Source: Eubacteriales bacterium
Lineage (GTDB): Bacteria > Bacillota > Clostridia > Oscillospirales > Oscillospiraceae
Direction: 5' to 3'
Assembly (NCBI GenBank): GCA_030539285.1
Contig: JAUNSH010000032.1
Span: forward strand, 1 to 33,425
Length of the DNA: 33,425 nt
The notes under the pieces: generated by a model
The model's database searches: none
Told to the model about the DNA's origin: nothing
Seen by the model: only the letters and a program-made list of their open reading frames with translations
In this document: one piece after another, positions 6,281 to 24,408 of the stretch
Numbering within the stretch: position 1 is the first letter of the stretch
Layout: each line of letters begins with the position of its first letter
Position numbers and translations under genes: made by a program

Positions 6281-6355
6281 CGTAGGGGAGGGTCATTGAC
6301 CCTCCCGTCGGCGTCAGCCGCTTCGCGGAAGGGCGGGTTGATAACCCGCCCCTAC
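6281..6355. repeat. GTAGGGG palindrome element, copy 2
   Basis: A 75-base element made of two different hairpins. The left is CGTAGGGGAGGGTCATTGAC with its CCTCCC partner. The right is GGGCGGGTTGATAACCCGCC followed by CCTAC. They are joined by GTCGGCGTCAGCCGCTTCGC. It starts seven bases after the methyltransferase stop codon and may also slow transcription there. It has no ORF. Confidence 0.85.
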
Positions 6356-21196: not shown

Positions 21197-21526
21197 TCAG
21201 TCCAGGATCTCCATCAGTCTGCCGCAGCAGAAGGGGATGGGCTCGCCAGCCTTGACGTGCTGGGTCTTGTTGCAGGTGACGCAGTAAACGTCGGTGTCAT
21301 AGGGGGCCCGGATCACGGGCACTTCCTTGGCTTCCTGCTCGGACAGGCCGTCGATATGGAATACGGCGGTCTTGTTCTCAGTGGGAACATACACGCCGAT
21401 GGGGGACAGGGTCTTGTTCCCGCCGACGCAGTTGCCCATCTTCACCCACAGAGCTTCCAGTTCAGCAGCTTCAGCAGCGTGCTCGGGAGTGAACTCCACA
21501 ACATCCTTATTGATACGAATTTTCAT
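21197..21526 (-). CDS. Unrecognised 109-residue protein with desulforedoxin-like Cys4 site
   Basis: A small cytosolic protein, MKIRINKDVVEFTPEH at the start. The middle segment GVYVPTENKTAVFHIDG suggests beta strands. The C-terminal segment has C82-x2-C85 and C100-C101 followed by GRLMEIL. This C-x2-C...C-C-G-x2-M pattern is that of desulforedoxin and of the N-terminal domain of desulfoferrodoxin, which bind one iron with four cysteines. The catalytic superoxide-reductase domain was not identified. It starts three bases after the rubredoxin stop, so the two are co-expressed in an oxidative-stress cluster, suggesting electron transfer or peroxide/superoxide defence. The exact function is unknown. 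Confidence 0.82.
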   Translation of the reverse strand: MKIRINKDVVEFTPEHAAEAAELEALWVKMGNCVGGNKTLSPIGVYVPTENKTAVFHIDGLSEQEAKEVPVIRAPYDTDVYCVTCNKTQHVKAGEPIPFCCGRLMEILD

Positions 21527-21529
21527 AGC

Positions 21530-21664
21530 TTACTCCTCGGGGCTGAAATCGTCCTTGCCCACGCCGCACAGCTCACAGGCGAAATCCTCGGGCAGATCTT
21601 CCCACTTCACGCCAGCCTCGTCCTCATCGTAGACCCAGCCGCACATATTGCAAACGTACTTCAT
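21530..21664 (-). CDS. Rubredoxin
   Basis: A 44-residue rubredoxin, slightly shorter than the usual 52-54. It carries the two iron-binding knuckles, C5-x2-C8 in YVCNMCGWVYDE and C-x2-C in FACELCGVGKDDF, for one Fe(Cys)4 centre. The KWEDLPEDF segment is typical. It donates electrons to rubrerythrin, whose gene is upstream. ATG 21664 has AAGGAG at good spacing. The loop between the knuckles is shortened, as in some clostridial rubredoxins. Confidence 0.95.
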   Translation of the reverse strand: MKYVCNMCGWVYDEDEAGVKWEDLPEDFACELCGVGKDDFSPEE

Positions 21665-21700
21665 AGCAATTGACTCCTTTTCTGAAAATTATGTAATCCT

Positions 21701-21737
21701 GCTTCGCAGACGGGCGGGTCAATGACCCGCCCCTACG
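21701..21737. repeat. GTAGGGG palindrome element, half copy
   Basis: Only the right half of the family is present: GCTTCGCAGACGGGCGGGTC, then AATGACCCGCCCCTACGG. The GAGGG half is missing. It lies between the rubredoxin and rubrerythrin genes and is followed directly by the family B repeat. Confidence 0.75.
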
Positions 21738-21749
21738 GAAAAACGTTTC

Positions 21750-21822
21750 GATACCGAGCAGTCCCCAATGGCGTAACGACCATAGACCAGTCGTGCACGC
21801 ATTGGCTGTCGGCACTGCCGAC
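21750..21822. repeat. Dispersed intergenic repeat, family B, copy 2
   Basis: Matches 2464-2520 from GATACCGAGCA through CCCAATGGCGTAACGA to CACGCATTG. It is followed by hairpin GTCGGC-ACT-GCCGAC at 21808-21822, ending two bases before the rubrerythrin stop codon (minus). In both copies the conserved block precedes a short hairpin of different sequence. Confidence 0.68.
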
Positions 21823-21823
21823 C

Positions 21824-22414
21824 TTACTTGAAGTAGCGCTCCAGCAGGCCCTTCAGAGCCTTGCCGTGACGGGCCTCATCGCGGGCCATCTCGTGGACGG
21901 TGTCGTGGATGGCATCCAGACCGTTCTTCTTGGCGCACTTGGCCAGGTCGAACTTGCCGGCGGTAGCGCCGAACTCGCAGTCAACACGCCAAGCCAGGTT
22001 GTCCTTGGTGGTGGCCTTCATGTTGGGCTCCAGATCCTCGCCCAGCAGCTCAGCGAACTTGGCTGCGTGCTCGGCCTCTTCGTAGGCGGCCTTCTCCCAG
22101 TACAGGCCGATCTCGGGGTAGCCCTCGCGGTGGGCGATGCGGGCCATGCACAGGTACATACCGACCTCGCTGCACTCGCCGTTGAAGTTGGCCATCAGCT
22201 GCTCGAAGATGAACTTCTTGTCCTCCTCGGAGATGTCGGGGTTGTTCTTCACGGTCTTGGCGTAGATGCCGTACTCGTGCTCAGCGGCCAGCTTGCCCTC
22301 TTCCATGACCTTGAACTTGGAGCCGTCGACCTTGCAGACGGGGCACTTGAAACCTTCGGGGATGGACTCGCCTTCGTAGACGTAACCGCAGACGGGACAG
22401 ACAAACTTCTTCAT
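21824..22414 (-). CDS. Reverse rubrerythrin
   Basis: A 196-residue non-haem di-iron peroxidase with domains in reverse order. The N-terminal rubredoxin domain has C6-x2-C9 ([12 protein letters not shown]) and C24-x2-C27. The ferritin-like four-helix domain (about 60-196) has metal-ligand motifs [20 protein letters not shown] and DEARHGKAL. The clostridial proteins of this type reduce hydrogen peroxide and oxygen using rubredoxin and NADH. The start at 22414 is preferred over the in-frame ATG at 22429 because the latter's codons form the GGAGG ribosome site. It is 18 bases downstream of perR and probably in the same transcript, giving peroxide-responsive expression. Confidence 0.95.
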
Positions 22415-22432
22415 ATTGTTTTCCTCCATAAT

Positions 22433-22843
22433 TTAAAATTTTTCGGGGTTTTCTGACTTGTTTGCGCAGCTGCCGCACAGGCCGGTAAAGGTGAGGCGGC
22501 AGTTCTGGACACGGCAGCCGGAGAGATCCTCCGCTTCCGCGCTCAGGCTTTCGGGGATCTCCATCTGCGGAAGGTCCACGATCATGTCGCAGCCGGTGCA
22601 GATGAAGTGCACGTGGGGATGGGTCATTGCGTCGAATCGCTCAACGCCCCGGACGGTGGCAACGCTGGTCACCAGCCCCTGGCTTTTGAACCGGGCCAGA
22701 TTGCGGTACACCGTTGCAAGAGAGATGTCCGGATGCTCCTTCTGCAGCATTTCGTACACCATTTCCGCCGACGGGTGGGTGGTGGCCCCTTGCAGGCAGG
22801 CGAGGATGGCGTTGCGCTTTCTGAACTGCTTCGCAGCTTCCAT
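22433..22843 (-). CDS. perR: Fur-family peroxide regulator, PerR-like
   Basis: A 136-residue (from ATG 22843) Fur-family repressor. The winged-helix domain includes HPSAEMVYEMLQ and SLATVYRNLARF, the recognition helix. The dimerisation domain has RFDAMTHPHVHF metal ligands. Two zinc-binding CxxC pairs follow (CTGCDM and CGSC). Gene order perR-rubrerythrin-rubredoxin argues for PerR rather than Fur or Zur. A GTG two codons upstream (22849) is an alternative start. Two 7-1-7 palindromes at its promoter indicate autoregulation. PerR-type repressors sense peroxide through metal-catalysed histidine oxidation. Confidence 0.9.
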   Translation of the reverse strand: MEAAKQFRKRNAILACLQGATTHPSAEMVYEMLQKEHPDISLATVYRNLARFKSQGLVTSVATVRGVERFDAMTHPHVHFICTGCDMIVDLPQMEIPESLSAEAEDLSGCRVQNCRLTFTGLCGSCANKSENPEKF

Positions 22844-22862
22844 GGACACCCCCTATCCTATT

Positions 22863-22966: not shown

Positions 22967-23057
22967 CGTAGGGGAGGGTCATTGACCCTCCCTTCGGCGA
23001 AGCCGCCCACTTGAACAGCCGCTTCGCGGACGGGCGGGTCAGTGACCCGCCCCTACG
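22967..23057. repeat. GTAGGGG palindrome element, full copy
   Basis: A 91-base element. The left hairpin is CGTAGGGGAGGGTCATTGAC with CCTCCC. The linker includes TTCGGCGAAGCCGC and CCGCTTCGCGGA. The right hairpin is GGGCGGGTCAGTGACCCGCC with CCTACG. It lies between the perR promoter region and the 3' end of the CooT-like gene and may serve as that operon's terminator. Confidence 0.85.
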
Positions 23058-23066
23058 GTTCGTCTT

Positions 23067-23261
23067 TTACACCGCCGCTTCCTTGACGACTGCTACGCCG
23101 TCCACCAGGTTCGCCATTTCCAGGGTCCCCTCCACGGCCATCTGGCGCTCCATCAGGTCGGTGAGGATGACCACGCCGTCCCTGCACTCGATGCGCATGA
23201 CGTTCTTCATCATCACCGCTTCGGGGGTCAACTTGTTCTTATACACGGTAGAAAGGCACAT
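23067..23261 (-). CDS. CooT-like small metal-binding protein
   Basis: A 64-residue protein starting MCLSTVYKN. It resembles the CooT/PF10133 family of small dimeric nickel-binding proteins, in which the conserved second-residue cysteine binds the metal. The rest, VMRIECRDGVVILTDLMERQ then GTLEMANLVDGVAVV, gives the short beta-barrel pattern. CooT was first described beside carbon monoxide dehydrogenase nickel-insertion genes; no such genes are in this window. ATG 23261 follows AAGGAG. It lies 12 bases downstream of the histidine-rich gene in the same transcript, supporting a role in nickel storage or transfer. The family call is from pattern memory and is fairly sure. Confidence 0.75.
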   Translation of the reverse strand: MCLSTVYKNKLTPEAVMMKNVMRIECRDGVVILTDLMERQMAVEGTLEMANLVDGVAVVKEAAV

Positions 23262-23273
23262 AGAAATTCTCCT

Positions 23274-23720
23274 TTATTCGTGCTCCATGCTGGTGAGCAC
23301 CACGCTCAGACGCATATTGCCCTTCTCGAAGTCGGACACAGCGGCCATGACCTGCTCGTAGGCAGTGTGATCGCCCGTCTGATCCAGCTTGGCGGCCAGG
23401 TCGGCCAGCTCCTTGGCGTGGGCGGCGTTGTGGCCCACCATATACTTCATCAGGGCCATCAGCTCTTCCCTGGGGGTGTGCTCGCACTGGGTCTGGCAGC
23501 TGCCGCACTCTCCAGCGCAGCCGTGGCTGTGGTTGTGCTCTGTGCCGTCGGCGTGGATGTGGTCGTGGGTGTGGGGATGCTCATGGTCATGGGTGTGCTC
23601 ATGGACGTGCTCGTGAGTATGGGTCACACCGTCGTGGGTGTGCTCGTGGGTATGGGCGTGCTCATGGGGATGCTCATGGTGCTCATGAGGGACGCCGGTG
23701 TGGTCGTGATCGACATGCAT
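23274..23720 (-). CDS. Histidine-rich metal-binding protein
   Basis: A 148-residue protein. Residues 1-67 contain 28 histidines, mostly in HxH or HEH/HTH/HDH repeats. A C-x3-C-x2-C-x3-C segment (CAGECGSCQTQC) follows, and then a helical C-terminal half (EELMALMKYMVGHNAAHAKELADLAAKL onward). It has no signal peptide, so it would bind Ni, Zn, Co or Cu inside the cell as a store, buffer or chaperone, comparable in composition to HypB/SlyD/Hpn histidine tails. ATG 23720 has AAGGAGG. It is the first gene of a two-gene operon, divergent from a CsoR/RcnR-type repressor that also has a histidine-rich tail. The C-terminal domain was not assigned to a named family. Confidence 0.85.
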   Translation of the reverse strand: MHVDHDHTGVPHEHHEHPHEHAHTHEHTHDGVTHTHEHVHEHTHDHEHPHTHDHIHADGTEHNHSHGCAGECGSCQTQCEHTPREELMALMKYMVGHNAAHAKELADLAAKLDQTGDHTAYEQVMAAVSDFEKGNMRLSVVLTSMEHE

Positions 23721-23748
23721 AGGAAAGTCCTCCTTTTAATTTTTCTAT

Positions 23749-23777
23749 ATTATAGTACCAATTGGACCCCATGTCAA
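23749..23777 (-). promoter_or_regulatory. Consensus promoter of the histidine-rich/CooT-like operon
   Basis: The minus strand has TTGACA (23777-23772), exactly 17 bases and TATAAT (23754-23749), a full consensus match. So strong a promoter would be expected to need repression; the candidate operator at 23801-23812 lies just upstream. Confidence 0.88.
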
Positions 23778-23800
23778 AACATTTATTTTCGTCAAAATAT

Positions 23801-23812
23801 CCCCCTTGGGGG
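23801..23812. promoter_or_regulatory. Candidate CsoR/RcnR-type operator
   Basis: CCCCCTTGGGGG, flanked by ATAT on the left, is a perfect palindrome with C- and G-tracts. CsoR, RcnR and FrmR family repressors bind G/C-tract palindromes of this kind. It touches the -35 region of the rightward repressor promoter and lies 24 bases upstream of the leftward -35 box, so one site could control both. Confidence 0.55.
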
Positions 23813-23813
23813 C

Positions 23814-23842
23814 TTGCGGAGAATTGCCTGCCGTAGTATAAT
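23814..23842 (+). promoter_or_regulatory. Promoter of the CsoR/RcnR-type gene
   Basis: TTGCGG, a 17-base spacer and a perfect TATAAT (23837-23842) lie 31 bases before the start codon. The -35 box is adjacent to the C5TTG5 palindrome. Confidence 0.7.
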
Positions 23843-23873
23843 ACACTTTACTATGATAAAGAGGAGGACAGGT

Positions 23874-24239
23874 ATGTCTGAAATTCATGAACACGAGCAC
23901 TATCATGACCATGGCCACGAGCAGGAACACGACCACGCCTACCTCCATGCCCACGGCATCGCCCACTCCCACGGTCACGTCCATGAGAACCAGAAGGCCG
24001 TCATCAACCGCCTGTCCCGGGCCATCGGGCATCTGGAGAAGGTCAAGCGAATGGTGGAGGAGGGTCACGACTGCTCCGAGGTGCTCATCCAGCTGGCCGC
24101 CGTCCGCTCCGCACTGGACAACACCGGAAAGGTGATCCTGAAGGACCATATGCGGCATTGTATGGTGGACGCGGTGGCGGCGGGCGATATGGAAGCCATT
24201 GACGACCTGTGTCAGGCCATCGATAAGTTTATGAAATAA
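23874..24239 (+). CDS. CsoR/RcnR-family metal-sensing repressor with His-rich N-terminus
   Basis: A 121-residue DUF156-family repressor. Residues 1-40 hold 14 histidines in HxH repeats. Residues 41-121 form the helical core (NRLSRAIGHLEKVKRMVEEG onward). Metal-site residues are C67 (in HDCSEVL), H92 and C96 (in KDHMRHC), the Cys-His-Cys triad of CsoR; H95 adds another possible ligand. The core alone fits Cu(I) CsoR or Ni(II) InrS. The histidine tail and the CooT-like neighbour point to nickel, by inference. ATG 23874 has GAGGAGG; longer upstream in-frame extensions run antisense to the histidine-rich gene and are rejected. The stop codon directly abuts a MITE. Confidence 0.9.
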   Translation: MSEIHEHEHYHDHGHEQEHDHAYLHAHGIAHSHGHVHENQKAVINRLSRAIGHLEKVKRMVEEGHDCSEVLIQLAAVRSALDNTGKVILKDHMRHCMVDAVAAGDMEAIDDLCQAIDKFMK

Positions 24240-24395
24240 TACTAAAACCTGATTAAAAACTTTAAATCTTTCCGGTCTGAATTGCGTCAGGACGCGTTAT
24301 CTTCCTTGATGGGCGTCAGCCCATCTGCGTCATCTGCCTTTTTTGACACAATTCATCCTCGGAAATCTTTTAAAGCTTTCAATCAGGTTTTAGTA
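24240..24395. repeat. MITE-like element with 15-bp perfect terminal inverted repeats
   Basis: A 156-base element with ends TACTAAAACCTGATT and AATCAGGTTTTAGTA, perfect over 15 bases. Imperfect pairing continues over about 12 more (AAAAACTTTAAA against GAAAGCTTTAAA). The interior contains the hairpin GATGGGC-GTCA-GCCCATC and no ORF. The outermost TA on both sides could be a TA target duplication, as in Tc1/mariner or IS630-type MITEs. It starts at the base after the repressor stop codon. Confidence 0.82.
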
Positions 24396-24408
24396 TAAGG
24401 GATCCAAC

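Follow-up and report, generated by a model that had tools for sequence, protein, structure and literature searches.

Which metal is handled, for what purpose and under what control, by a module in which a metal-sensing repressor and a facing protein both carry long histidine-rich segments? This question is raised by a locus in a 33,425-nucleotide stretch from an Eubacteriales bacterium (Oscillospiraceae; assembly GCA_030539285.1, contig JAUNSH010000032.1), the whole of which was analysed and is called the window here. In this locus, a csoR gene is divergent from a gene for a His-rich, CooJ-like protein and the adjoining cooT. We consider it fairly probable that the module is a nickel-supply unit for carbon monoxide dehydrogenase (CODH) and acetyl-CoA synthase (ACS), with its own nickel-sensing switch, and that it is part of a low-nickel regulon. 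To our knowledge, the regulation of nickel supply for CODH/ACS in acetogens and gut Clostridia is poorly known, and we found no description of such a regulon in the open-licence PMC literature.

A His-rich/CooT gene pair associated with CODH

The regulator gene, csoR (23874-24239, plus strand), encodes 121 amino acids and matches PF02583 with 98.4 bits (cut-off 22.8). A gap of 153 bp separates it from the divergent His-rich gene (23274-23720, minus strand; 148 amino acids), and cooT (23067-23261, minus strand; 64 amino acids) starts 12 nt past the end of the latter. CooT has a cysteine at position 2 (MCLSTVY) and matches PF10133 with 62.3 bits (cut-off 27). The regulator has 14 His in its first 40 residues and the Cys-His-Cys triad C67, H92 and C96, while the facing protein has 28 His in residues 1-67, followed by C68-x3-C72-x2-C75-x3-C79. 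A sequence-only reading of the window had described the divergent arrangement, both His tails, the cysteine motifs and the CsoR/RcnR and CooT-like identities, and we found its coordinates and all its sequence statements to be correct. Two stop-to-stop frames of the window stand out as the richest, with 19 and 14 His per 40 residues, whereas 60 first-order Markov sequences of the same make-up gave 9 at most; the His content is therefore not due to chance.

AlphaFold models the His-rich protein as a confident C-terminal two-helix hairpin (helices 83-114 and 118-147) behind a Cys linker and a His tail that is predicted to be disordered (block means of pLDDT, the per-residue model confidence, of 91-98 from residue 81 onward and of 41-62 in eight tail blocks). 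In an alignment of 20 rows (the window protein and 19 relatives), C72, C75, H97, N98 and H101 are invariant. Searches of the PDB gave no convincing match for the core of this protein and nothing useful for CooT.

The genome of the window (G000; 84% complete, 98 contigs) has a CODH gene over the cut-off on another contig (G000:C51:113644-115506), after which come a CooC-type ATPase and acetyl-CoA synthase (PF03063 557 bits; PF03598 and PF19436). We fetched the best 80 of 412 relatives of the His-rich core in the named collection, which are mostly Lachnospiraceae by their record titles, including Blautia and Robinsoniella. CooT was found by tblastn within 600 bp downstream of the His-rich gene in all 80, and 73 have CODH, on the same strand, no more than 5 kb away; the other 7 loci end within 2.2 kb. 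A tail with at least 7 His is present in 77 of the 80, with starts as set by script. A common gene order is His-rich gene, CooT, MetF in some loci (PF02219 in L063), CooC-type ATPase, CODH and a second CooC-type ATPase. In G565 and G450 the order is CODH, CooC-type ATPase, ACS-like gene, His-rich gene, CooT and DUF3842. Genes outside the window were called with our own scorer of open reading frames (ORFs) and an ORF listing, and neighbours without a family match were named by eye.

We also searched for the C-terminal core in 197 genomes of the order and 391 of the class. It was found in 5 order genomes, among which the match in G128 (34% identity, two stops, overlap with other ORFs) was rejected as spurious, and in 16 class genomes. 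Translations read by eye show CooT at most about 3 kb from the core in 14 of the 16; neither core copy of G466 has a CooT beside it by this reading, and the contig of G252 ends there. CODH is over the cut-off in 71 of the 391 class genomes, that is in 15 of the 16 with the core versus 56 of the 375 without it (Fisher 3e-11; the Fisher values ignore genome relatedness). For CooT and CODH in the order genomes, the association is 4/6 versus 5/191 (p 3e-5). CODH is over the cut-off in 17 of the 19 genomes that have the core, and is within 10 kb of it in only 8. The exceptions, G071 and G412 (loci L006 and L065), have the pair without CODH over the cut-off; in G071 the pair comes after a CooC-type ATPase.

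The minus-strand pair is a known CODH accessory pair. By description it would correspond to hp and nbp of Clostridium autoethanogenum, in which a His-rich gene likewise adjoins CooT and is tied to the CODH/ACS cluster. There, deletion of the His-rich hp and the CooT nbp beside the C1-fixing cluster is reported to have caused growth defects and changed products, nickel supplementation revealed no difference for the nbp strain, and homologues are said to accompany pathway genes in other acetogens (PMC10230548). Unlike hp and nbp, the pair in the window is on a different contig from CODH and is divergent from csoR; its position apart from CODH and beside its own His-tailed InrS-type regulator is new.

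Rhodospirillum rubrum requires CooT and CooJ under nickel scarcity (PMC6006190), and the two are present in CODH operons of clades E and F (PMC13056359). The likeness to the R. rubrum proteins lies in Cys2 of CooT, the small His-rich partner and the putative accessory role for CODH at scarce nickel. As for the context of CooJ beside CooT in CODH operons, it is found in the relatives, while in the window CooT adjoins and CODH is on the other contig. The His-rich region is C-terminal in R. rubrum CooJ (PMC6006190) and N-terminal here, with the helical core C-terminal; for this reason we call the protein CooJ-like and not CooJ.

CooT is fused to a DUF3842-type protein in locus L042 (2722-3339), near genes that are CbiM/CbiQ-like by eye, and it adjoins such a protein in L037 (12754-13366) and L071 (8249-8864), with PF12953 detected in L071 only. 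DUF3842 may be a further nickel gene.

The regulator and the nickel sensor InrS

A PDB search with the regulator gave 85.6 bits each for InrS and 6ahx, versus 46.5 bits for the best copper CsoR. The His-Cys-His-Cys fingerprint is formed by H35, C67, H92 and C96. Position A, before the first Cys, is an Asp (D66) and not the Tyr of Cu(I) sensors, and position Z is C96 and not the His of RcnR. For the allosteric positions B and C, which would be Glu in an InrS-type nickel sensor, a pairwise alignment tentatively places D111 at B and A108 at C, beside a gap. In the tree, the window protein, nine other His-tailed proteins from Clostridia, InrS and 6ahx form one clade (12 of 30 rows; support 96/89).

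Among the 35 PF02583 matches, 26 were placed in the tree and four (L100-L103) were read by eye only; the letters of L082 at A, W, X, Y and Z were left out of the fingerprint comparison. The ten InrS-type regulators come from ten of the 19 genomes that have the CooJ-like core; this number is a minimum, as five PF02583 matches (G307, G565, G395, G258 and G415) were not read. The divergent arrangement of csoR and the pair was seen in the window genome only: the linkage in G307 is arranged differently, and in G111, of the same genus, csoR lies elsewhere and the genes are on different contigs.

The window regulator resembles Synechocystis InrS (PDB 5fmn) in the His-Cys-His-Cys fingerprint, the lack of Tyr at A, the N-terminal histidines and the common clade (PMC4235346, PMC7055735). 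It differs from InrS in its longer His tail and in standing beside CODH accessory genes, not beside the nrsD exporter. Apo-InrS is reported to enhance the nik import genes in Synechocystis (PMC7055735).

The genome has a second CsoR (G000:C21:13968-14204; L039 5951-8234), with Pro before the first Cys, which adjoins a P-type ATPase-like gene. A 158-bp element with 28-nt inverted ends (window 24239-24396) begins at the last base of the csoR stop codon. Two more copies with 98-99% identity are present in G000:C21 (L039 1120-1277 and 3820-3977), as in a family of miniature inverted-repeat transposable elements.

An operator-like site at the csoR promoter and its recurrence

Between the divergent genes we observed an operator-like site, ATATCCCCCTTGGGGGCTTG (23797-23816, plus strand), with the palindrome CCCCC-TT-GGGGG at 23801-23812. 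The csoR promoter carries TATCCCCCTTGGGGGCTTG, and the palindrome stands just before the weak -35 hexamer of this predicted promoter (23814-23842, plus strand; TTGCGG at 23814-23819), which has a perfect -10, TATAAT, at a spacing of 17 nt (23837-23842). The predicted cooJ-cooT promoter (23749-23777, minus strand) consists of TTGACA, 17 nt and TATAAT, a 12/12 match to the consensus. The centre of the site would be at about -42 from the csoR start, assumed to be 7 nt past the -10, and at about -64 from the cooJ start. The csoR gene of G111 retains ATATCCCCGGGAGGGGCTTGCG in the same register, and G450 has a similar site between a His-tailed csoR and a CbiM gene. The G-tract operators of streptomycete CsoR, ATATACCCCTNAGGGGTATAT, share the CCCC-spacer-GGGG pseudopalindrome and the AT flanks (PMC3902906); the window site differs from them in being asymmetric, as a one-sided CTTG supplies the TTG of the -35 box. 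A palindrome about 135 bp before the start of the genome's own CODH, TTATCCCCCACGGGGG (G000:C51:113454-113469; L034 9455-9470), was considered as a second site and kept only as a lead, because it has no CTTG/-35 register and was not seen in the short pre-CODH stretch of G111, where the contig ends.

We searched for the site in other genomes with patterns of different stringency. With one mismatch allowed, ATNNCCCCNNNNGGGGCTTG gave 22 matches in 8 of 13 genomes, versus 7 for the reversed control. Thirteen of the 22 were read as promoter sites, and the other nine reach at most 4 TATAAT matches. At 12 of these 13, the best hexamer has 5 or 6 TATAAT matches, at a spacing of 17 in 11 cases (two tied with another spacing) and of 16 in one; the spacing is the best of seven (14-20), and the TTG is itself part of the pattern. 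The thirteenth has 4 of 6 matches at a spacing of 16. Without its CTTG part, the pattern matched at 26 places in 19 genomes, and the reversed control at 14. Ten of the 26 carry CTT(G/A), each preceding a gene. By our own reading, the other 16 fall within ORFs or upstream of unrelated genes; the CODH-upstream site of G000 may be an exception.

The strict motif, TAWCCCCNNNNGGGGCTTG, was found at 12 sites in 10 of the 391 class genomes, with no match for the reversed control. Ten of the 12 have a hexamer with 5-6 TATAAT matches 17-18 nt past the TTG hexamer; the site before an AstE-like gene (16 nt) and that in G252 (18 or 20 nt) have 4. The genes that follow are CbiM-CbiQ in G450 and, by eye, in G222 and G372; a CooJ-like and solute-binding-protein pair in G466 and, by eye, in G549; SBP_bac_5, called 551 bp away, in G252; Peripla_BP_2 and methyltransferases at the two sites of G307; a substrate-binding component of energy-coupling factor transporters (ECF-S) with a methyltransferase, and the AstE-like gene, at the two sites of G412; an AraC-like gene by eye, 300 bp away, in G285; and csoR in G000. 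Taking strict and one-mismatch sites together, they precede CbiM in G450 and G071 (PF01891, 184 bits each), SBP_bac_5 in G450, G412 and G252, and CooJ-like plus SBP_bac_5 in G466. A one-mismatch site also stands before an ECF-S and methyltransferase pair in G111 (by eye), as in G412, and in G285 a lookalike of the AstE-like gene comes after csoR. The methyltransferase, ECF-S and AstE-like genes (L187, L197, L199, L091 and L202) are possible further functions of the regulon.

The strict motif is associated with the CooJ-like core (7 of 16 class genomes with the core versus 3 of 375 without; p 5e-9), also when G000 and G450 are removed (5 of 14 versus 3 of 375; p 1.5e-6). Independent support comes from the zero control matches and from G222, G372 and G549, which were not used in shaping the motif and in which the sites precede apt genes by eye. 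Of the 10 genomes that have an InrS-type regulator, 7 carry a CTTG-type site.

Some features of the window lie outside this module. A dispersed palindrome, GGGTCANTGACCC, has 7 copies with at most one mismatch, against 0.14 expected (positions 6290, 15158, 21716, 22976, 23036, 26795 and 26841), and two of the copies fall within the arms of an inverted repeat (22967-23057) that closely follows cooT. After cooT, on the same strand, are genes for a PerR-like Fur-family protein, a rubrerythrin and a 109-residue protein without a family (21197-22849, minus strand), perhaps an oxidative stress cluster. An Rfam search of the window found no NiCo riboswitch, its sole match being a tRNA, and the module had no match in the plasmid collection.

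A proposed nickel-scarcity regulon and its alternatives

In other Clostridia this site is found upstream of metal importers and of CooJ-like genes, and it is on this basis that we place the unit in a nickel-scarcity regulon. The His-rich protein, with its tail and two-helix core, would collect Ni(II) and, together with CooT, pass it to the machinery that matures CODH/ACS, the genes for which lie elsewhere in the genome. The InrS-type regulator would bind CCCC-N4-GGGG beside its own promoter and leave the DNA upon binding Ni(II). At low nickel, the apo-regulator on the DNA would keep importers and chaperones on, and expression would fall as the nickel-bound form comes off. We infer that nickel rather than cobalt is the metal; this CsoR is presumably the protein that binds the site, probably activating rather than repressing, and the site may also act on the cooJ promoter, 23 bp off.

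Nickel importers must be on at low nickel. This logic, the release of such sensors by metal, the reported enhancement by apo-InrS and the near-fixed distance of the site to the -35 lead us to apo-activation at low nickel. The near-fixed distance to a weak -35 is activator-like; a repressor has no need of such a register, yet could show it.

Several observations weigh against the nickel-scarcity regulon. Published work on InrS states that the metal cannot be predicted from the fingerprint (PMC4235346). G071 and G412 have the pair but no CODH over the cut-off. A PF02583 gene is within 10 kb of the pair in only 2 of the 19, the window genome and G307, and near it in none of the 80 relatives' loci; the His-rich/CooT pair does recur, but the full set of three genes is rare. 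The window has a single site, whose register fits the csoR promoter, and the full-consensus cooJ promoter is without one; likewise, the cooJ promoter of G111 has only a loose CCCGC-N4-GCGGG, though its csoR keeps the site. In G480, G481 and G565, which have an InrS-type regulator, no CTTG-type site was found in a promoter-like place. Conversely, the site occurs without an InrS-type regulator in G466, where both PF02583 genes have Tyr at A, and in G252 (73% complete), where Ser and Pro are at A; G222, G372 and G549 were not searched for the regulator. The CODH loci of the 80 relatives contain no strict site and one core-only site. Finally, the association of the motif with the core is circular in part, since genomes selected for the core served to settle the strict pattern; this slightly lowers our confidence.

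The accidental neighbourhood that some of these points suggest, in which csoR controls only itself and unlinked importers and cooJ-cooT is constitutive, is in our view rather unlikely. The consensus cooJ promoter without a site and the different contigs in G111 are what it would lead one to expect. It does not account for the second, differently arranged linkage in G307, or for the site directly before the CooJ-like gene in G466 and G549.

Sensing of cobalt, or of nickel and cobalt together, would serve both the corrinoid and the nickel arms of the Wood-Ljungdahl pathway. The regulator is in the InrS clade, and CODH/ACS and CooT are nickel systems, which makes this reading unlikely, even with CbiM genes after the site, a BtuC-like FecCD permease after a one-mismatch site and a corrinoid protein gene adjoining the G307 cluster. 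The SBP_bac_5 proteins also speak for nickel, as they score with nickel NikA models, but below the cut-off and alongside peptide-binding models.

The sequence-only reading had preferred a self-contained buffer or store, in which high metal would free the repressor and the His-rich protein would take up the surplus. It was drawn from the absence of CODH in the window, which fits the genes seen there; CODH, with the CooC-type ATPase and ACS, is simply elsewhere in the genome. Storage was dropped as the main explanation when CODH/ACS turned up in this genome and next to the relatives of the pair. The long His tails, the release of nickel sensors of this family by metal (PMC7055735) and the lack of any exporter noticed in the window agree with a store. 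Close relatives of the pair in CODH clusters, the co-occurrence of the core with CODH, and importers and binding proteins rather than exporters or stores after the site elsewhere make it improbable. What survives of that reading is metal handling by the module, with nickel as the probable metal. A copper CsoR with a decorative His tail is very improbable: the Cys-His-Cys triad and the resemblance of the G-tract palindrome to the S. lividans CsoR operators (PMC3902906) fit it, but position A has no Tyr, the protein is in a clade with InrS, and it is the second CsoR of the genome that adjoins a P-type ATPase-like gene.

Returning to the nickel-scarcity regulon, we tentatively extend it beyond this genome, as a possibility that we would not yet call likely: His-tailed InrS-type proteins of acetogenic and gut Clostridia may be apo-activators of such a regulon, binding CCCC-N4-GGGG at a fixed distance just before a weak TTG -35 and contacting RNA polymerase. 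Their targets would be ECF and ATP-binding cassette nickel importers, CooJ-like proteins and CODH metallation genes, and nickel would remove the protein. If this is true, a CsoR-family protein would do the job of NikR in reverse, and the His tails of sensor and chaperone would compete for one nickel pool. The site would join a regulator type, importers and CODH accessory genes in one testable regulon, with a concrete DNA target.
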